From NCBI GenBank assembly GCA_002067755.1, contig MVQH01000058.1, forward strand, positions 1-37,452: a DNA stretch of 37,452 bases. Reading direction: 5' to 3'. Position numbers and translations under genes: made by a program. The notes under the pieces were generated by a model. That model had not been told where the DNA came from. It saw only the letters and a program-made list of their open reading frames with translations, and searched no databases. This DNA comes from Methanosaeta sp. PtaB.Bin018. Lineage in GTDB: Archaea > Halobacteriota > Methanosarcinia > Methanotrichales > Methanotrichaceae. Below, piece by piece: positions 5,614 through 20,105 of the stretch (its first letter is position 1; every line of letters begins with the position of its first letter).

Positions 5614-6073
5614 CTCTGAAGAATCTCCGGAGCGTGATGAAAGCCATGATTCGCTCCTCACCGAGAGGCAGATCAAAGTGCTGAAGCTGCGAATGCAAGG
5701 CCTCTCTCAGGCGGACGTAGCAGAGATGCTAGGAACGACTCGATCCAACATCAGCATCCTTGAGAAGAGAGCTCACCAGAATATAGCCCGCGCGGAGCGC
5801 ACCCTGCAGCAGTGGATGATGATTCGAGCTCCTATCTGTCTGCAGGCAAAGGCCGGCATGGATGTATTCGATCTGCCAGGGAAGATCTTCGAGGCAGCTG
5901 ATAAGAGATCGCTGAGACTGCCAGTCACCTCCATGGATATCATAGTACAACTGAGACGCAAAGCTCCTCGGATCTTCAAGAAGAGAGTTCTCGAGAGGGA
6001 TGCTGAGATATTCGTCACGGAGGATGGAGAAATCCTGGTAGAAGTCACTTTAGGTGATGATACAATTGAGTGA
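5600..6073 (+). CDS. Tfx-family DNA-binding transcriptional regulator
   Basis: Residues 18-68 form a sigma-70-region-4-like helix-turn-helix (LTERQIKVLKLRMQGLSQADVAEML then TTRSNISILEKRAHQNIARA), and the C-terminal half (FDLPGKIFEAADKRSLRLP) matches the conserved domain of Tfx. The prototype from Methanothermobacter binds DNA next to the molybdenum formylmethanofuran dehydrogenase promoter. Here it sits inside an envelope-like operon, overlapping the genes on both sides, so it may regulate that operon; its target here is inference. Length (157) is normal for the family. Confidence 0.88.
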   Translation: MTPDSSEESPERDESHDSLLTERQIKVLKLRMQGLSQADVAEMLGTTRSNISILEKRAHQNIARAERTLQQWMMIRAPICLQAKAGMDVFDLPGKIFEAADKRSLRLPVTSMDIIVQLRRKAPRIFKKRVLERDAEIFVTEDGEILVEVTLGDDTIE

Positions 6074-6689
6074 GATCTCATGTGCAGGTAGTCGCAGCTT
6101 GAATTTGTCTATTATTGTTTTAGCTATTTTGCTTTTGACGTTGCTTGTCATGCAAAACGCCACGCCAGCCTCAGGCTTTGGCAGGAGCACTGAGGACCTG
6201 ATGGGAGCCTTCTCCCTGCAAAAGACCATACGGCTCGCGAGCAGCAGCGAATGCTTCTTTGGGGAGGCGACGGCCGACCCGTTGAGCCCACCTCAGAGCT
6301 TTGAGGCTAATGCCATGAAGGACGACCAGCCACCAAGCCTGGCAGGCTTTGGGTTCGAGCCCAGAACCGTCCCTGCCATGTCAGATAGTGCGATCAACTT
6401 CACAGCACACCTCATCGACGACCAAAGCGGCCTTTGGGCATCTGCAGCTTATTTTCACAGCCCATCAGGAGACCAAACCGCAGTGGTGCTATTCAAGATG
6501 CAAGACCTCACATCAGGCACCACGAAGGACGGGATCTACACCTCCAGGATGTCAATCTCGAATGGAAGTGAACGCGGCGACTGGCAGATGGATAATATAA
6601 CTCTCGTCGACGGGGAAGGCAATCGCATGGTTTTGCAAAGAGAGGATTTAATGCGCGACGGACTGCCAACAGCATTTCAGGTGACGTGA
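6057..6689 (+). CDS. Secreted or membrane-anchored protein with an Ig-like domain
   Basis: The ATG at 6057 lies within the end of the Tfx gene (17-nt overlap). The N-terminus has one hydrophobic segment, LSIIVLAILLLTLLVMQ (about residues 16-34), then a polar linker and, from about residue 105, a beta-sandwich-like domain with the sequence style of extracellular Ig folds: DGIYTSRMSISN, GDWQMDNITLVDGEGN. This last pattern (G-x-W-x-V-x-x-I-x-L-x-D-x-x-G-N) recurs in bacterial and archaeal surface proteins. It is likely displayed outside the cell. No enzyme motif is seen. It closes the operon begun by DUF1616. Confidence 0.7.
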   Translation: MIQLSEISCAGSRSLNLSIIVLAILLLTLLVMQNATPASGFGRSTEDLMGAFSLQKTIRLASSSECFFGEATADPLSPPQSFEANAMKDDQPPSLAGFGFEPRTVPAMSDSAINFTAHLIDDQSGLWASAAYFHSPSGDQTAVVLFKMQDLTSGTTKDGIYTSRMSISNGSERGDWQMDNITLVDGEGNRMVLQREDLMRDGLPTAFQVT

Positions 6690-6760
6690 GCTTCGACTCT
6701 ACAGGTCTCGAACGCCAAAATTGGTTTTTTTTGTTAGGGCAGGCAACTGTGCTGAAAAAC

Positions 6761-6768
6761 TTATTTAT
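6761..6768 (+). promoter_or_regulatory. Putative TATA box of the CDF-CHAT operon
   Basis: TTATTTAT, preceded by an A-rich BRE-like stretch (GAAAAAC), is centred about 29 nt before the ATG at 6794. This predicts initiation at about 6790 and a leaderless message, and it supports the ATG at 6794 over the GTG at 6686. Confidence 0.45.
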
Positions 6769-6793
6769 TGCTTGCCAGGCAAATCCATTTTCG

Positions 6794-7690
6794 ATGGCAT
6801 ATTACGCAACAGTCAAGCGTATTCTGATAATAATATTTATACTAAACATGCTCGTAGCCATTGTGAAGGGCGGCTACGGAATCTTTACCAACTCCTTGAG
6901 CATGACCAGTGACGGGTTGCACTCTTTATTTGACAGCACATCCAATATCATCGGTCTGGTAGGCATCTCACTGGCCTCTCGTCCGCCTGACAAGGAGCAT
7001 CCGTATGGCCATTCAAAGTTCGAGATCTTCGCATCTTTGGGCATAGCAGTGCTTTTGTTCGCCAGTTGCTTTCAGATAGTATTATCCGCAATAAATCGGT
7101 TTTTAAACCCGACAGTCCCAGAGATAACAGAGCTAAGCTTTGGCATTATGCTCGCGACCTTGTTGCTAAATGTGGGCATCTCTTCTTATGAGTATGTCCT
7201 TGGCAGAAGGCTGAAGAGCAGCATCCTGGTGGCCGACTCCATGCATACACGCAGCGACATTTACGCCTCCTTCGGGGTGATTTTGGGGTTTGTGGCAGTC
7301 AAGATGGGCTATCCTCTTGCAGATCCAATCATAGCACTGTTTATAACAGGGCTGATCATCCTGACAGGGCTGGAAATTATGAAAGATAGCTCCAGGATAC
7401 TGCTGGACAAGGCTTTGATCGAAGAGAGCGTGATCAGGAGGCTGGCCGAGTCTGTTGATGGTGTGTGCAACTGCCACCGCGTCAGGACTCGCGGAATGCC
7501 AGGCGAGATGTTCGTGGACCTGCACATCGGCGTTGACTCGTCTCTCTCGGTCGAGGCGGCCCACAAAGTTGCAAGGGAGGTTGAAGAGACCATCAAAAAA
7601 GCCATCGAGGGGGTCGAGGACGTGGTTGTGCATATCGAGCCAGAAGACCACTGTGAACATACAGGGCAGACGAGGGGGATTGGCGAGTGA
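6794..7690 (+). CDS. Cation diffusion facilitator (CDF) family metal efflux transporter
   Basis: The 298-residue product has six membrane segments and a cytoplasmic C-terminal domain. Metal-site residues of the family are present in TM2 (SDGLHSLFDSTSN) and TM5 (ADSMHTRSDIYAS), and the TM2-TM3 loop HPYGHSKFE is the family signature. CDF proteins exchange Zn2+, Mn2+, Fe2+ or Co2+ for protons. The C-terminal region (MFVDLHIGVDSSLSVEAAHK and VVVHIEPED) is the usual ferredoxin-like dimerisation domain. The start at 6794 fits the TATA box; upstream codons back to a GTG at 6686 encode non-conserved sequence. The stop overlaps the CHAT gene start by four nt (GTGA). Metal specificity cannot be read from sequence. 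Confidence 0.92.
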   Translation: MAYYATVKRILIIIFILNMLVAIVKGGYGIFTNSLSMTSDGLHSLFDSTSNIIGLVGISLASRPPDKEHPYGHSKFEIFASLGIAVLLFASCFQIVLSAINRFLNPTVPEITELSFGIMLATLLLNVGISSYEYVLGRRLKSSILVADSMHTRSDIYASFGVILGFVAVKMGYPLADPIIALFITGLIILTGLEIMKDSSRILLDKALIEESVIRRLAESVDGVCNCHRVRTRGMPGEMFVDLHIGVDSSLSVEAAHKVAREVEETIKKAIEGVEDVVVHIEPEDHCEHTGQTRGIGE

Positions 7691-10600
7691 GTCAAAATAT
7701 CACGATCTCAGTTTCTGAGGCAGGAAGTCCAGCATCGAGGACTCTTGAGTTCAAGATTGTGGCTGGAGGGGAGGTCCTGGTGGAGCAGAAGCTCACCCCA
7801 GTCGAGTCCAGCCAGGTTCGCGAGATGGCAGGCCAGTATATCTCCATGTTCAGTGAAAGCTGCAATGCGTCTCAGGATTACCTTTCCATCCTGGGGGACG
7901 GCCTCTTTCACATTTTCTTTGAAGCTGGCTGGCGGAACATCAGCAGCAAGATTTTGGAGGGCGGGACTCTGATCATCGCCTCAGAGATACCTGAGGTGCT
8001 CCAGTTGCCGTGGGAGTACCTCAGGCTCGAGGGCCTGGTGGTGGGATTCGACGAGAGGTTTTGCATAATTCGCATGCCAAAAGTGGCAGATGGTCTTTCC
8101 GCATCCCGGGCAGAGATAGCGCCGGGACCATTGCGTGTGCTCTTTGTTGCCTGCGATCCCCTGGACTATGAACAGGAGGAGCAATGGATGCTTCAGGCGG
8201 CAGAAGGCCAGGATATGGTGCTTCAGATATGCGATGAAGGAACGCTTGAGGAGCTGAAGGAAACTGCCAGGGCCTTCCGACCTCATCTGATACATCTCGT
8301 GGTCCAGGGAAGAGTGAAAGAAGGTCAGGCGTTCTTTTCAATGCTGGATGGCAAAGCAAGGCAGAGACTTCACCTTCCTTTGGAGCTTGCAGATGCCCTG
8401 AAGGGATGCGGGACGCAATGCGTCATCTTTGGAGGCTGCCAGAGAGAGGCGCCTTCGTCTCTGTATCTGCTCTCCCAGAATCTGGTGAGGTATCTTCCCA
8501 TGGCAGTGAGCTGGAATGGCAAGACGAGCCTCGCCCCTGCCTTGTATCGCTCCCTTGCTAAAGGCCGATCGATCAGTGACGCGCTGAGCGCTGCTCGCCT
8601 TGAGATGCAAACAGCTTGCCTCAATGAAGGCGAGATTTGCGCCATTCCAGTCTTTTTTGCTGCCAGCGACCAGCAGACGATATTCGACGCACAGAAGCGG
8701 GCTGATGTTGCCGTCGCTCCATGGACGATGAAAAAGAGTCTTCGCCCCTTGCCGGGTTTGTCAGAGGGGCATGCACATGGATTTGTGGACCGCAGATTAG
8801 ATCTGCAGCGCCTCACCTTTGCCTTGCTGGAGGGCACAGCTCGCACTCTGATCATCACAGGTCCAAGGGGCGTGGGCAAGAGCTCTCTTGCAACCATGCT
8901 CGCCGAGCGGCTGGCATCCTCCGGCTATTTTATCTTGCCAGTCTACAGCTCACAAAATAATCCCGTCAGTGCGACACGCCTGCTGGAGTCGTTCGTCAGC
9001 CTCTTGGCCAAGAGCGGACAGGTTGAGGCAGCACAGAGGCTCAGGGACTCCAGCAGATCTGCGGCAGATAGGCAAAAGAGCATGCTGGAAGAGCTCAATC
9101 GTGGCAAGTTTTTGATCTTATTGGACGGGCTCGATCCCGATGAGAAGACTGGCAAGATCGAGGACCCAGACCTGGCCGAGTTTTACCTTCAAGCGCAAAG
9201 GGAGCTGGATAAAAGCAGGATGATCATCACATCTCGATCTCTTGCCCTGCCTCTGTCAAAGCGAGCATGGGAGTGGCCACTGACCGGCCTTTCCAATGCC
9301 GCATTTATAAAATGCCTGCTGCAGGACGAGATCGTGGCAGAGCGGTACCGCAGAGGCGAGGTGCGCTACGAGGACCTCCAGAGGCTTTGCTGCTCTGTGG
9401 CTGGAAGCCCAGCATGTCTTGCACAGATGGCAGTGGCCTTGAGGATGGATGGCATGACAGGAGATTGCGAGGAAGTCCTGGAAAAGACATCTGCCCTCTT
9501 GAGTTCAAAATCGCGTTCTGCTCTCAGCATGGCAGCGGTATATAGCATCGCCGTGAACATTGCAGCTCTGGCTGCCGTTTCCGGAAGACAGGTAAAAGAG
9601 GCCGCCGAATTTGTCTGCGACTGGAAGCGGCTTAAATTGGTATATCAGGCAGGTGAACTCTGGGCTGTGCCCTCATACATTCGCGACAAGCTTCTGGCAG
9701 TCTTGACGCCAGAGGAGCGTCGTGCAGCTCAAAAAGCTGCAGCCGAATTCTTGAGGGTTCTTGCAGAAGAGGGGAAAGCAGCAGAGCTTGGACTGTCTCG
9801 GCTGGATTTGATGCTGGAAGCGCGAGGCCACTATATCGCTGCAGACGATCTTAAGGCAGCCAGGATTGTGAGCAGTCGCATCAGCAGCTATCTGGAGAGG
9901 CGTGGCTACCATTCGCAGTTGATTTGGCTAAACCAGGAGCTTTTGAATCTTGAGAGGCATGCTGAGACGATGAACTGGATCGCACGAGGATACCTTGGCC
10001 TGGGCGATCTGATAAATGCTCAGGAATGGTACGGACGCGCCCTGGAGATGGGACCTGATGCCGCTGCCAGCCTGGGCCTTGGCATGATCCATCTCTCCCA
10101 GGGCAGGGATGAGCAAGCTCTGGAAGCGCTGCAGAAGGCCCAAAAGCTCCAGGAAACGCTTGGGGATTTAAGAGGTCAAGCAGAGACTTTGCAAACTATG
10201 GCACTGCTCGATCTACGCCGCAGCGATTATGAGGCCGCGCGCTCAAAGGTCGTGAAAGCTCTGGAGATGGTTCAGCATGCAGGCGACATAGCTGGCTTTG
10301 CTGAGGCGCAATACAAACTGGCAGCCATCGATATGGAGAGAGGCGATCTTCAGCTTGCGCGCGAGGAGTTTCAAAAAGCTCTTCAGCTCAAGCGCGAGAT
10401 TGGCGAGCGCAGGGGTGAGGCAGCAGTACTGCATAACCTGGGCCAGATAGAGTCCCAAGTCAACGACAAAGAGGCGGCTGTGAAGAATTTTAGTGGAGCT
10501 TTGCGTATCTATCAAGAGCTAGCCGACAAGCCCGGCGAGGCTGGGGCCTTTTTCCAACTTGGAGCCCTTTCGGTGCAGAGAGATAAAATTCCTGAAGGCC

Positions 10601-10803
10601 TGAGGCTGATGGCGCTTGCTGCCATTGTCCTGAGAAGCATCAAGAGCGATGAAGTCAAGAACGTGGAGCCATTGGTGGAGCGTCTGGCTGCACAGCTCAA
10701 CTACAGCCAAGAGCAGTTCATGGTTATGGTTCAGGAGGTCTTGCAAAGCTATGTCACTGACAAGGGTTGGGGGCTGGTAAAGAGGGCTTTTGTGGAAAAA
10801 TAA
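7687..10803 (+). CDS. CHAT domain - STAND ATPase - TPR protein (NLR-like architecture)
   Basis: This 1038-residue protein has three parts. Residues about 1-335 are a CHAT (caspase-like) domain: LPWEYL, PHLIHLVVQG (199-208) and CVIFGGCQRE with Cys251 at the nucleophile position. The second histidine of the usual HxxxHG box is Gln207. Residues about 355-640 are a STAND/NB-ARC-like ATPase with Walker A GPRGVGKSS (392-400), Walker B FLILLDGLD (475-483), a sensor-like IITSRS and a GSPACL box. Residues about 740-1010 hold TPR units. CHAT-STAND-TPR proteins act in bacterial and archaeal signalling and are suspected in immunity or cell death. GAGGGGG eight nt before the GTG supports the start, which overlaps the CDF stop. 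Confidence 0.88.
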   Translation: MSQNITISVSEAGSPASRTLEFKIVAGGEVLVEQKLTPVESSQVREMAGQYISMFSESCNASQDYLSILGDGLFHIFFEAGWRNISSKILEGGTLIIASEIPEVLQLPWEYLRLEGLVVGFDERFCIIRMPKVADGLSASRAEIAPGPLRVLFVACDPLDYEQEEQWMLQAAEGQDMVLQICDEGTLEELKETARAFRPHLIHLVVQGRVKEGQAFFSMLDGKARQRLHLPLELADALKGCGTQCVIFGGCQREAPSSLYLLSQNLVRYLPMAVSWNGKTSLAPALYRSLAKGRSISDALSAARLEMQTACLNEGEICAIPVFFAASDQQTIFDAQKRADVAVAPWTMKKSLRPLPGLSEGHAHGFVDRRLDLQRLTFALLEGTARTLIITGPRGVGKSSLATMLAERLASSGYFILPVYSSQNNPVSATRLLESFVSLLAKSGQVEAAQRLRDSSRSAADRQKSMLEELNRGKFLILLDGLDPDEKTGKIEDPDLAEFYLQAQRELDKSRMIITSRSLALPLSKRAWEWPLTGLSNAAFIKCLLQDEIVAERYRRGEVRYEDLQRLCCSVAGSPACLAQMAVALRMDGMTGDCEEVLEKTSALLSSKSRSALSMAAVYSIAVNIAALAAVSGRQVKEAAEFVCDWKRLKLVYQAGELWAVPSYIRDKLLAVLTPEERRAAQKAAAEFLRVLAEEGKAAELGLSRLDLMLEARGHYIAADDLKAARIVSSRISSYLERRGYHSQLIWLNQELLNLERHAETMNWIARGYLGLGDLINAQEWYGRALEMGPDAAASLGLGMIHLSQGRDEQALEALQKAQKLQETLGDLRGQAETLQTMALLDLRRSDYEAARSKVVKALEMVQHAGDIAGFAEAQYKLAAIDMERGDLQLAREEFQKALQLKREIGERRGEAAVLHNLGQIESQVNDKEAAVKNFSGALRIYQELADKPGEAGAFFQLGALSVQRDKIPEGLRLMALAAIVLRSIKSDEVKNVEPLVERLAAQLNYSQEQFMVMVQEVLQSYVTDKGWGLVKRAFVEK

Positions 10804-11954: not shown

Positions 11955-12758
11955 TCACACCAATTGGGAGATCTCCTTATAATAATTGAACAGCTCTTCT
12001 CCCCACAATGTGGCATCTTCGCCTATACATATCAGTTCCCCACCTGCCAGATCTATAGTCCCGTCCAATCTCCACAGCCCCAAAGCTAATAGATGCTCAG
12101 TTATTGTAAAGCCGATGTTGATATTTTTATCTAGGCGATATAGGTGGAAGTTATTCGCCGCCCTCAGGCCGTTGATCAGATCAAAGTACTCTTTAGAGAC
12201 GACATTCAGAATCGAATCAGTCAATATCAGCTCGACATTTGCACCACGTTCGACGCAACCCTTGATGATCTCTGGAAAACCAGGAGCTATAAAAGAAGAA
12301 ACTCCGCGGATATTTTTTGCTCTTGACAACTCTTGCATGAAGTTGTCCAAGCTTTTGAGGGGCGACGCTGGATCTGAGGTTACTCGCTGGGATCGGGCCA
12401 GCATCCCCATCTTGGCCAGAAGGTGTTCAGGAATTCCGCTCAAGTCATGACTTTGCCAGTAGTCTGCGTGCTGATCCAAAAGCACAATAGCTGCCACGAG
12501 CTCATCCAGCAAGATGGTCTGAATTTTGCCAATGTTCGTCAAAGAATAGCGCGCATCTTTTTTGTTTACAAGGCCTGTATCGATCAGATCCTTCATCGAA
12601 TGAAGGATTGTAGATGCCCGAATGTTCATCTCCCTCTCCAGTTCCCCAGCAGTCATCCTTCTGCCCTTCAGGCACAGCATTATTTTCGTACGCACTGCAG
12701 ATCGTGTGAACGCCTTTAATTGGTCCTCCGCCAGATCATAGTAATTCCACGCAGACAT
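11955..12758 (-). CDS. FilR1-type winged-helix transcriptional regulator (DUF1724)
   Basis: Residues about 15-75 form a winged helix (RTKIMLCLKGRRMTAGELER, then IRASTILHSMKDLIDTGLV), and residues about 110-260 match the FilR1/DUF1724 ligand or sensor domain: FIAPGFPEIIKGCVERGANVE, NINIGFTITEHLLALGLW, GEDATLWGEELFNYYKE. This family is expanded in Methanosarcinales; relatives control methyltransferase genes, and FilR1 of Methanothrix is part of a quorum-type system. The ATG at 12758 (after AGGGAT) is preferred over the TTG at 12764. It follows the small exported protein by 11 nt on the same strand, suggesting one operon and possible autoregulation. Confidence 0.88.
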   Translation of the reverse strand: MSAWNYYDLAEDQLKAFTRSAVRTKIMLCLKGRRMTAGELEREMNIRASTILHSMKDLIDTGLVNKKDARYSLTNIGKIQTILLDELVAAIVLLDQHADYWQSHDLSGIPEHLLAKMGMLARSQRVTSDPASPLKSLDNFMQELSRAKNIRGVSSFIAPGFPEIIKGCVERGANVELILTDSILNVVSKEYFDLINGLRAANNFHLYRLDKNINIGFTITEHLLALGLWRLDGTIDLAGGELICIGEDATLWGEELFNYYKEISQLV

Positions 12759-12769
12759 GATCAAATCCC

Positions 12770-17058: not shown

Positions 17059-18735
17059 ATGAAAATGCTTGTAGGAATTGATGTTGGCGGAACCACCACT
17101 GATGCCGTCTTGGTGGAAGGCAATAGCGTGGTCAAGGCCGCTTACGTGCCAACAGATCACGATGATCTGCTGAAGTGTCTGCTGGGGGCTCTGGACGAGC
17201 TGGTCAAGGACGTAGATACCCGAAAGATCGAGCGGGTGGTTTTGAGCACGACCCTGATTACTAATATGATCGCAGAAGGCAAGACAGATCCCGTGGCCCT
17301 GGTGCTCATCCCAGGCCCCGGAACGAACCCCAAGGACTATAACCTGGGCGAGGCCTGCATCCTGGATGGCGCCATCGACTACCGTGGCCGTGAGATCGAC
17401 CGCCTCAAGGAATCCCAGATCAAAGAGGCAGCCTCCAAGATCTCAGCCCAGGGGCTGGCCCGCATAGCCGTGGTTGGCAAGTTCTGTCAGCGAAACCATG
17501 CTCACGAGCAGAAGGTCGGAGAGATCATGAGAGCCGCCCTGCCTGGAGCAAAGATCGAGCTGGGACACAGGGTCTCAGGCCATCTCAACTTCCCGAGGCG
17601 TGCAGCCACAACCCTTCTCACAGTGGCCACAAAGGACAAGTACAGGGAGTTTGCTCAGGCGATGGCTGACGCGCTGCGACAGCGCAAGATCTCAGCTCCT
17701 GTTTACATCCTGAAGGCGGACGGCGGAACGCTTCCGCTGGACTCTTCAGTGCAAATGCCTGTGGAGACTATCTTCTCAGGACCTGCCGCCAGCATCATGG
17801 GCGTCCTGGCGCTGACTCCTGCTGGCCAGACCTCGGTGATAGTGGACATCGGCGGCACGACCACAGATCTGGCATTGATACTTTCAGGCAAGCCTCTGCT
17901 CTCTTCAAAAGGGGCAAAGGTGGAATCACTTCTGACACATGTGAGAGCCTTCGCCGTCAAGTCGGTGGCCATCGGAGGCGACAGCGCAGTGGATGTTTCA
18001 GATGAGCGCATGACCGTCGGGCCCCAGAGAAAAGGGCCTGCATTTTGCATGGGCGGTCCCTGTGCCACGCCCACGGATGCGATGCGCGTCTTGGGGCTGA
18101 CAAGCGTCGGCGATGCTGCCAGGGCCGAGAAGGCCATGCAGGAGGTTGCAAATAAACTCAATTGCTCGCCCAAAGAAGCAGCCCAAAAGATCGTCGATGC
18201 GGTGGTGGACAAGATCGTTGCAGAGGTGGGCGAGATGTTCCGAGCATGGGAGCAGGAGCCTGCTTATCGCATTTGGGAGATCATGAAGAAGGAGAGGCTT
18301 GAAGCCCAGAACGTTGTGGGCGTTGGAGGAGGCGCACCCCCGTTGGTGCCACTTGTGGCTTCGCGCCTGGGCGCTAGCGCGATTGTGCCTGATTTTGCAC
18401 GCGTGGCCAATGCCATCGGAGCTGCAGTCGCTCGGCCCACAATTACTCTGAACCTGCACATCGACACCGAGAGGGGTGAGTACATTGTGGCAGAGGATGG
18501 GCTCACCGGCAAAGTCGGGGACAGAAAGATGACGCCGGAGCAGGCAGAGAAGCTGGCAAGAAAGCTTCTGGATGAGCGGGCCGAGCGTCTTGGGATCGGC
18601 GAGTATTCAGGAGAGGCAGAGGTGACTTACAGCGAGGTGTTCAATATGATACGCGGCTGGTCAACTGTGGGGAGGCTTCTTGACATAAGAATGGAGATTC
18701 CAGCTGGCTTGCTGGCATCTTGGAGGGGGTGCTAA
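17059..18735 (+). CDS. Hydantoinase/oxoprolinase (HyuA-like) family ATPase
   Basis: The 558-residue protein opens with MLVGIDVGGTTTDAVLVEG, the actin-like ATPase phosphate-1 loop of HyuA/5-oxoprolinase proteins, followed by VVLSTTLITNMIAEG. A second phosphate loop, VIVDIGGTTTDLALI, lies near residue 260. NVVGVGGGAPPLVPLVASRL is the adenosine motif. The family couples ATP hydrolysis to opening hydantoin or oxoproline-type rings; archaeal versions such as this one stand without a separate HyuB and their substrate is unknown. AAGGCG precedes the ATG. It is the first gene of a run of four with gaps of 5, 6 and 27 nt. Confidence 0.88.
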   Translation: MKMLVGIDVGGTTTDAVLVEGNSVVKAAYVPTDHDDLLKCLLGALDELVKDVDTRKIERVVLSTTLITNMIAEGKTDPVALVLIPGPGTNPKDYNLGEACILDGAIDYRGREIDRLKESQIKEAASKISAQGLARIAVVGKFCQRNHAHEQKVGEIMRAALPGAKIELGHRVSGHLNFPRRAATTLLTVATKDKYREFAQAMADALRQRKISAPVYILKADGGTLPLDSSVQMPVETIFSGPAASIMGVLALTPAGQTSVIVDIGGTTTDLALILSGKPLLSSKGAKVESLLTHVRAFAVKSVAIGGDSAVDVSDERMTVGPQRKGPAFCMGGPCATPTDAMRVLGLTSVGDAARAEKAMQEVANKLNCSPKEAAQKIVDAVVDKIVAEVGEMFRAWEQEPAYRIWEIMKKERLEAQNVVGVGGGAPPLVPLVASRLGASAIVPDFARVANAIGAAVARPTITLNLHIDTERGEYIVAEDGLTGKVGDRKMTPEQAEKLARKLLDERAERLGIGEYSGEAEVTYSEVFNMIRGWSTVGRLLDIRMEIPAGLLASWRGC

Positions 18736-18740
18736 GAAGA

Positions 18741-20105
18741 ATGTCATCCAAAGGCAAGAGCGGAAAGACTGGGCTGATATTCTTCCCGGCATTCGACTGG
18801 GCCATCTCACCCACACACCCTGAACGAGAGGAGCGGCTGCTCTACACCAGGGACCAAATATTCGAGGAGGGCCTGATGGACCTTCCCCAGATAGATGAAT
18901 ACAAACCCCGTCTGGCAGAGATGTTGGACATTGCCCGCGTTCACTTCTGCGTTCCGGATGTCGAGTCGCAGATCACAGAAGCGCACCTGATTGCAGCTGG
19001 CAGCACTCTTACGCTGGCGGATGCCCTGGAGAGTGGAGAGATCAGAAATGGTTTTGCGCTGGTACGGCCGCCCGGCCACCACAGCATGCGGGTGGTGCAC
19101 GGAAATCGTGGCTTTTGCAACATCAACAACATGGCCATACTGGTAGAGTACATGAGATCGAAATACGGGCACAAGAGGATAGCCGTCATCGATACAGATG
19201 TCCACCACGGCGACGGAACCCAGGAGATCTTCTGGCACGACCCGGATGTGCTCTGCATATCTTTCCACCAGGACGGACACACCCTGTACCCCGGAACCGG
19301 CTTTGTCAACGAGATGGGCGGGCCGCAGGCATTGGCCAGAACGTTGAACATCCCCCTGCCCCCGGGAACCACTGACGAAGGCATCCATTACGTCCTGGAC
19401 AGGCTCATCTTGCCGGTTCTTGATGAGTTCAAGCCAGATCTGATCTTGAACTCCGCGGGTCAGGACAATCACTACACAGACCCACTTGCCAATATGCGTT
19501 TCTCTGCGAACGGCTACGCCAGGCTGAATGAGAAGCTCGCACCTGATATCTGCGTCCTGGAGGGGGGCTATGCAGTCGAGACTGCCCTGCCCTATGTGAA
19601 CACAGGCATAATCCAGGCCATGGCGGGACTTGACTACTCCCACCTCAAGGAGCCTGACTTTGTGCCTGGCAGATTCGTCCAGTCTGAGCAGATGAGCAGG
19701 GAGATCGAGGCCACTGTGGCCCAGGTTCAAAGGCTCTGGGACGATAGAGATGAACTTGTCAAGGATGCCCTGGAAGGCCTTGGCGACTTTTACCGCAGGA
19801 AGAAACGCATCTTCTATGATACCGACATGATCAATGAGAGCCAGGAGGAGACAGTTCGTCTCTGCCCGAACTGCTCTGGCTACATGACCATCTCCACTCA
19901 GGCGCAGCGAGGCTACGGCATCCTGAACAGTGCTTTTTGCGTATCCATTCCCCGCAAAGCGTGCGCCTCGTGTCGTGAGGACGCCAAGGAGGAGTATGAG
20001 GAGCACATCGACGACTGCAGGATCGGATATGTCTGCATGCAGGACAAGGACAGGGACACATTCAAGTTCCACAACAACATGACGCACACGCAGAAGAGTT
20101 ATTGA
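18741..20105 (+). CDS. Histone deacetylase family hydrolase with a C-terminal CxxC/CxxC tail
   Basis: Residues 1-320 are an arginase-fold deacetylase: the His pair RPPGHHS (H113, H114), zinc ligands D153 and H155 in DTDVHHGDG, D242 in SAGQDNHYTDP, and EGGYAV near the catalytic Tyr region. Such enzymes remove acetyl groups from lysines, polyamines or small molecules. About 130 residues follow the catalytic domain, with LCPNCSG and ACASC, likely a zinc-ribbon. Standard AcuC/HDAC proteins lack this tail. The ATG at 18741 follows GGAGGGGGTG and lies five nt past the hydantoinase stop; an in-frame TTG at 18720 would overlap that gene. Substrate unknown; tight linkage to hydantoinase suggests amide chemistry on a shared small molecule. 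Confidence 0.88.
   Translation: MSSKGKSGKTGLIFFPAFDWAISPTHPEREERLLYTRDQIFEEGLMDLPQIDEYKPRLAEMLDIARVHFCVPDVESQITEAHLIAAGSTLTLADALESGEIRNGFALVRPPGHHSMRVVHGNRGFCNINNMAILVEYMRSKYGHKRIAVIDTDVHHGDGTQEIFWHDPDVLCISFHQDGHTLYPGTGFVNEMGGPQALARTLNIPLPPGTTDEGIHYVLDRLILPVLDEFKPDLILNSAGQDNHYTDPLANMRFSANGYARLNEKLAPDICVLEGGYAVETALPYVNTGIIQAMAGLDYSHLKEPDFVPGRFVQSEQMSREIEATVAQVQRLWDDRDELVKDALEGLGDFYRRKKRIFYDTDMINESQEETVRLCPNCSGYMTISTQAQRGYGILNSAFCVSIPRKACASCREDAKEEYEEHIDDCRIGYVCMQDKDRDTFKFHNNMTHTQKSY

Follow-up and report, generated by a model that had tools for sequence, protein, structure and literature searches.

The stretch of DNA analyzed here, in the following called the window, comprises 37,452 nucleotides of the methanogenic archaeon Methanosaeta sp. 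PtaB.Bin018 (contig MVQH01000058.1). It contains on its forward strand an open reading frame (7687-10803) in which a CHAT domain is followed by an intact STAND ATPase core and an array of TPR repeats (Table 1). An active CHAT protease carries the histidine of an HG motif together with a cysteine as catalytic dyad; the window protein does not, as Gln207 takes the place of the histidine. We report that, judged by its sequence relatives, the gene is a member of a pseudo-protease clade and not an isolated oddity.

Domain organization and fold

The Pfam CHAT profile matches residues 157-310 of the window protein with 29.8 bits, compared to a cut-off of 24, and the AAA_16/ATPase_2 (approximately 366-483) and TPR families (approximately 766-945) also score above their cut-offs. 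If only the CHAT half (residues 1-355) is modeled by AlphaFold2 (AF2; predicted local distance difference test, pLDDT, of 90) and compared to the PDB, the Craspase TPR-CHAT protease is the top match (E 5.8e-10), followed by Csx29, SAVED-CHAT and then, among others, separases. The protein thus both passes the curated profile and has a predicted CHAT/separase-like fold. The full-length model (pLDDT 88.8, predicted template modeling score, pTM, 0.77) is matched best by the STAND-TPR protein PH0952 (PDB 6MFV) with an E value of 4e-18 and a template modeling score of 0.71 by target.

The P-loop, Walker B, sensor strand and GxP-type motif expected of a STAND-TPR protein are all found, as are the nucleotide-binding oligomerization domain, the arm and the TPR-sensor fold. 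The motifs GPRGVGKS, FLILLDGLD, RMIITSR and GSP are kept across the orthologues with few exceptions, so that the first-pass annotation of this DNA was right to regard Walker A and B as intact. As Walker A, Walker B, the sensor-type strand and the GxP-type proline are conserved, the switch part is probably functional. A missing MHD-type histidine was considered as an additional switch mutation and rejected: the corresponding winged-helix segment reads WAVPS, which is uninformative on loss of function since dyad-intact paralogues also lack a histidine there (WVIYG, WTVYG).

Loss of the catalytic dyad

To locate the catalytic columns we used a profile-based alignment of 32 family members with SAVED-CHAT (8TL0), a solved and active CHAT protein. 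The histidine of its GHG motif (His355) aligns with Gln207 (codon CAG) and the cysteine of its NACC motif with Cys251 (TGC). The distance between both residues is 44 positions, compared to 42 between His585 and Cys627 in the dyad of the Craspase TPR-CHAT protein, where mutation of C627 abolishes activity (PMC9729208). This confirms the glutamine in place of the HG-box histidine that the first-pass annotation had noticed.

The family alignment that had been proposed as a check places this glutamine at the level of a clade. In 28 syntenic orthologues the histidine column is occupied by Gln (20), Pro (5) and once each by Leu, Glu and Thr, and never by His. A mutation in a single species or a sequencing error at position 207 is thereby ruled out, glutamine being common to most of the clade. 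The cysteine column holds Cys in nine sequences, Arg in 12, Gly in four, and Trp, Gln and Glu in one each. The statement that the cysteine is kept is accordingly correct for the window species and fails for the clade, in which 19 of the 28 orthologues have lost it. This becomes apparent already among the nearest relatives: the orthologue in genome G014 has Gln/Cys, and the one in G023 is 86% identical to the window protein in the CHAT domain, yet carries Arg at the column of Cys251 (Gln/Arg). An inactive CHAT domain, suggested before as one of several options, would therefore be a fixed feature of the clade.

The outgroups present a different picture. His-Cys is found in three proteins of g9 (a genus of Methanotrichaceae), in G033b, in nine out of 10 proteins of family f3 (same class, presumably of Methanosarcina type) and in the dyad-intact Methanothrix paralogues; the tenth f3 protein with His/Tyr is the sole exception. 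Methanosarcina acetivorans, included as a control genome, also encodes CHAT. On the outgroup-rooted tree two changes are required for the histidine column and five for the cysteine column, while the long-branched G031 (His/Arg) and G034 (Pro/Lys) have an uncertain position deep in the tree. With the direction given by this rooting, the dyad appears to have been lost in the ancestor of the syntenic clade, beginning with the glutamine and followed by repeated loss of the cysteine.

Distribution and selection

A syntenic orthologue is present in 25 of the 26 Methanothrix genomes searched (including that of the window). Outside Methanothrix, three genera of the same family (G026, G032, G035) have it as well. 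All 25 other Methanothrix genomes give a match, that of G024 being the dyad-intact paralogue, and matches at 85-86% identity place the window in this genus. The genome of the window encodes only one CHAT protein. We did not find the gene in six searched genomes of the small-genome genus g5 and in several of g9.

The 22 intact full-length orthologues range from 1015 to 1104 amino acids. Mean pairwise identity lies at 46-58% in five segments (N-terminus, CHAT, STAND, middle, TPR) and at 37% in the linker between CHAT and STAND, compared to 75% in the C-terminal 88 residues. For twelve close pairs we calculated the ratio of non-synonymous to synonymous substitution rates (dN/dS), which lies at 0.13-0.64 for CHAT, 0.14-0.39 for STAND, 0.12-0.30 for TPR and 0.05-0.26 for the C-terminal cap, where one pair deviates with 0.54.

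Sensor repeats and the dyad-intact paralogue

The window protein has the combination of effector, STAND and repeats that characterizes NLR proteins. Hypervariable or homogenized sensor repeats, as a further NLR characteristic, are missing from it and are found in most dyad-intact homologues. Internal TPR identity is 0.26-0.44 in all 26 syntenic orthologues tested, compared to 0.54-0.97 in 10 of 12 dyad-intact homologues tested, if the His/Tyr protein is counted among the ten. The two low values belong to short and possibly truncated proteins (G068, G097a). Tandem TPR arrays of 120 bp occur in G017b (7.7 copies, 68% matches) and G024 (13.4 copies, 78%); in the window gene we looked for tandem DNA repeats and none are present. 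In fungal NLRs, high internal conservation of the sensor repeats goes along with fast-changing recognition, as a feature of a subset of these proteins (PMC12222747). Loss of the dyad coincides with loss of NLR-like homogenized TPR arrays, a correlation drawn from few independent events, as the clade has one main origin. Homogenized repeats are uniformly absent from the dead-dyad clade, which is best conserved at its sensor end, and this points to a sensor tuned to one fixed ligand.

The dyad-intact Methanothrix paralogue resides at a different locus, 5′ of an RNA methyltransferase and of the L3/L4/L2 ribosomal genes; at L059:5274-9290 (minus strand), L068, L069, L071, L065 and L066 it lies directly 5′ of the ribosomal operon. 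G017 carries an intact copy. Frameshifts are seen in G012, G021 and G027, the copies of G019 and G024 are interrupted or truncated, and that of G006 runs into a contig end. Assembly errors in repeat-rich contigs of metagenome-assembled genomes may explain part of this damage. In their appearance the dyad-intact homologues are far more immune-like than the window gene.

We further observed tandem copies of the C-terminal cap in genus g4, with six on contig C33 of G028 (L097), and in G036 three on C104 (L098) and five in all. This suggests that CHAT-STAND-TPR genes are expanding or decaying locally in this genus.

Neighborhood of the gene

Neighbors at the syntenic locus are a CDF cation exporter, a DUF7743 protein and UPF0047. 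The exporter is the 5′ neighbor on the same strand in all 23 loci where both genes share one locus. In four of these loci (window, G014, G023 and G015) the stop codon of the exporter and the start of the CHAT gene form a 4-nt overlap; the other gaps do not exceed 120 nt with one exception. A CDF orthologue is found in 25 genomes of the family, each of which also has a non-dyad CHAT gene, whereby these counts are not phylogenetically independent. The reverse does not hold for G004, the divergent G027, G031 and G034, and the fragmentary genomes G005 and G008, where the non-dyad gene is found without CDF. Co-transcription of both genes is likely, and a functional linkage is only suggested.

Table 1. 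Features of the CHAT-STAND-TPR gene and its upstream neighbors in the window.
Feature	Position	Strand	Basis or remark
CHAT-STAND-TPR pseudo-protease gene	7687..10803	+	1038 aa; GTG start overlaps upstream stop codon (GTGA)
N-terminal half of CHAT-like fold, residues 1-145	7687..8121	+	structure of residues 1-355 predicted by AF2, similar to TPR-CHAT proteases and separase
CHAT domain, residues 146-330	8122..8676	+	Pfam PF12770; 8TL0 profile match, E 2.2e-9
His203 codon (CAT); strand His also found in dyad-intact homologues and distinct from the catalytic one	8293..8295	+	codon, alignment
Gln207 codon (CAG); catalytic-His column	8305..8307	+	codon, alignment
Cys251 codon (TGC); catalytic-Cys column	8437..8439	+	codon, alignment
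STAND NTPase core, residues ~364-640	8776..9606	+	Pfam AAA_16/ATPase_2; best match of full-length model PH0952
Walker A GPRGVGKS, residues 392-399	8860..8883	+	conserved among orthologues
Walker B FLILLDGLD, Asp480 invariant	9109..9135	+	conserved among orthologues
Sensor-1-type strand SRMIITSR, Arg511 invariant	9214..9237	+	conserved among orthologues
GxP-type motif GSP, Pro575 invariant	9403..9411	+	conserved among orthologues
TPR array, residues 746-950, diverged repeats	9922..10536	+	TPR family matches, model; no tandem DNA repeat
C-terminal helical cap, residues 951-1038, best-conserved segment	10537..10800	+	pairwise identity; helices in model
CDF-family cation exporter, 5′ neighbor gene	6686..7690	+	Pfam Cation_efflux and ZT_dimer
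Small DUF7743 protein whose N-terminus is hydrophobic; a conserved neighbor	6054..6689	+	family match, synteny

Further downstream the window encodes a FilR1-type regulator (FilR1_middle domain, helix-turn-helix; 11955-12764, minus strand), of which a member of the same cluster is also found near the G011 orthologue. A histone deacetylase-superfamily protein (18720-20105, plus strand) directly follows a hydantoinase/oxoprolinase-type gene (17059-18735).

Interpretation and alternatives

We consider it probable that the protein is a CHAT-STAND-TPR switch without proteolytic activity, which is committed to a conserved endogenous signal and acts via protein contacts. The TPR array and the C-terminal cap would bind one conserved cellular partner or ligand, and this binding would release autoinhibition. 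ADP-ATP exchange could then open the switch and allow multimerization as in MalT and PH0952, from which a nucleotide-driven assembly of the window protein may be deduced by analogy. In place of cutting a target, the dead CHAT domain might recruit or hold it as a docking site or scaffold. Descended from an NLR-like CHAT-STAND-TPR receptor, the protein would now act as a fixed regulator of housekeeping type, probably co-expressed with the CDF metal exporter. More tentatively, an archaeal NLR-like protease receptor may have been domesticated: the Methanothrix ancestor would have lost the dyad and the homogenization of the repeats, and the gene would have joined the CDF-exporter operon and turned into a core regulator that works without proteolysis, possibly in metal or envelope homeostasis, with the pseudo-CHAT domain signaling by binding.

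Several observations weigh against a dead switch of this kind. CHAT is often under weaker purifying selection than the TPR region and the C-terminus, and part of the domain may be merely structural. Cys251 is intact in the window species, which leaves room for other thiol chemistry. The structure models rest on 30-32 sequences, the match of the catalytic columns to an active CHAT being alignment-based. The G009 orthologue (L036:6873-9785) lacks the P-loop (Walker A) segment in the alignment and has a shortened C-terminus; this gap may be an assembly artefact or an ATPase-deficient variant. Finally, the linkage to CDF is broken in two lineages (G004 and G027), so the exporter is not obligatory.

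An NLR-type immune protein, whose architecture the first-pass annotation had recognized here, is the alternative that survives best, even though we regard it as unlikely. Here the protein would still act in anti-phage defense, with the dead CHAT domain as a decoy, guard or dominant-negative module, a role that has been suggested for inactive caspase effectors in conflict systems of bacteria. The NLR-like architecture, the same as in NLR-like conflict proteins, stands; approximately 70% of the caspase domains that vWA-MoxR systems carry as effectors are inactive (PMC7159879), and the Avs3 and Avs5 structures are among the weak matches of the full-length model. The immune role is weakened by vertical inheritance and by the single syntenic orthologue that nearly every genome of the genus has; the association with defense genes or mobile islands and the patchy distribution of an immune receptor are not seen. 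Diverged repeats together with a best-conserved sensor end are the opposite of what a diversifying receptor would show. PADLOC gave only generic TPR and marginal P-loop matches for the window gene, with neither a specific defense model nor an NCBIfam identity, and no gRAMP/Cas7-11 of type III-E CRISPR was found among the annotated neighbors.

Even less probable is a regulator in trans of an active protease, for example of a dyad-intact CHAT paralogue or of an orthocaspase of the same genome. Pseudo-caspases like cFLIP and a trypanosome metacaspase act in this manner (PMC6426788), and the genome of the window has one orthocaspase (Peptidase_C14), whose SGHG and DACN motifs are intact (G000:C63:28749-29276, L101). 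This orthocaspase, however, has a hydrophobic signal-like stretch near its N-terminus and may be exported. The dyad-intact CHAT paralogues occur sporadically, most of them with a frameshift or truncation, and such a partner is ruled out in the window's own genome, where no second CHAT protein exists.

There is very little likelihood that CHAT is still an enzyme which combines Cys251 with another base (Gln207 or His203), as had also been considered. Cys251, His203 and His200 are present in the window species, the latter being invariant in the syntenic clade. The dyad-intact homologues, however, carry His203 next to the catalytic histidine, which makes it a strand residue typical of the family instead of a replacement base; a placement of His203 in the catalytic position is thus contradicted. 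Gln207 is moreover replaced by Pro in five and the cysteine lost in 19 of the 28 orthologues, while CHAT stays under purifying selection. A decaying gene heading to loss, which the faster evolution of CHAT and linker compared to the C-terminus and the absence from genus g5 might indicate, is already contradicted by dN/dS below 1 in all domains, the intact reading frames of the full-length orthologues and conserved synteny.

Relation to known systems

The dead switch that we favor has a STAND ATPase core and a TPR sensor in common with PH0952 of Pyrococcus horikoshii and MalT, and differs from them by the CHAT-type domain at its N-terminus and by a C-terminal cap that is extended and highly conserved. 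The structure of the archaeal PH0952 shows a closed state with bound ADP and double autoinhibition, and the STAND-TPR form opens and multimerizes (PMC6468293). With Craspase TPR-CHAT/Csx29 and SAVED-CHAT it shares the CHAT fold; there a working His-Cys dyad (PMC9729208) is gated by gRAMP-bound RNA or cyclic oligoadenylate, whereas the window protein lacks the dyad histidine and activation would go through the STAND ATPase. Directly homologous and identical in domain order are the dyad-intact proteins of Methanothrix, g9 and the Methanosarcina type, which differ in their intact dyad, mostly homogenized TPR arrays, another locus and often broken genes.

Bacterial pseudo-orthocaspases, p20 domains without His-Cys, are likewise caspase-fold pseudo-proteases under selection and sometimes the only copy of a genome (PMC6426788); they belong to the p20/C14 family, whereas the window protein belongs to CHAT. 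Inactive caspase-like effectors of bacterial conflict systems have been read as peptide-binding or dominant-negative modules (PMC7159879). In the literature searched, with incomplete coverage, we found no published description of a dead-dyad CHAT-STAND-TPR clade. The principle of a dead effector is already known, and the archaeal clade is a new variation on it. It represents a clade-wide archaeal pseudo-protease in the CHAT family, which is related to p20, for which the survey reported pseudo-orthocaspases in bacteria and none in Archaea (PMC6426788).

The states His-Cys, Gln-Cys and Gln-Arg provide a natural before-and-after series for a caspase-fold effector on a STAND switch, and the question what a dead immune effector does becomes testable within one archaeal family. 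The dead protease part has been kept by selection, which suggests the conversion of an immune-type switch into a fixed regulator that does not cut.

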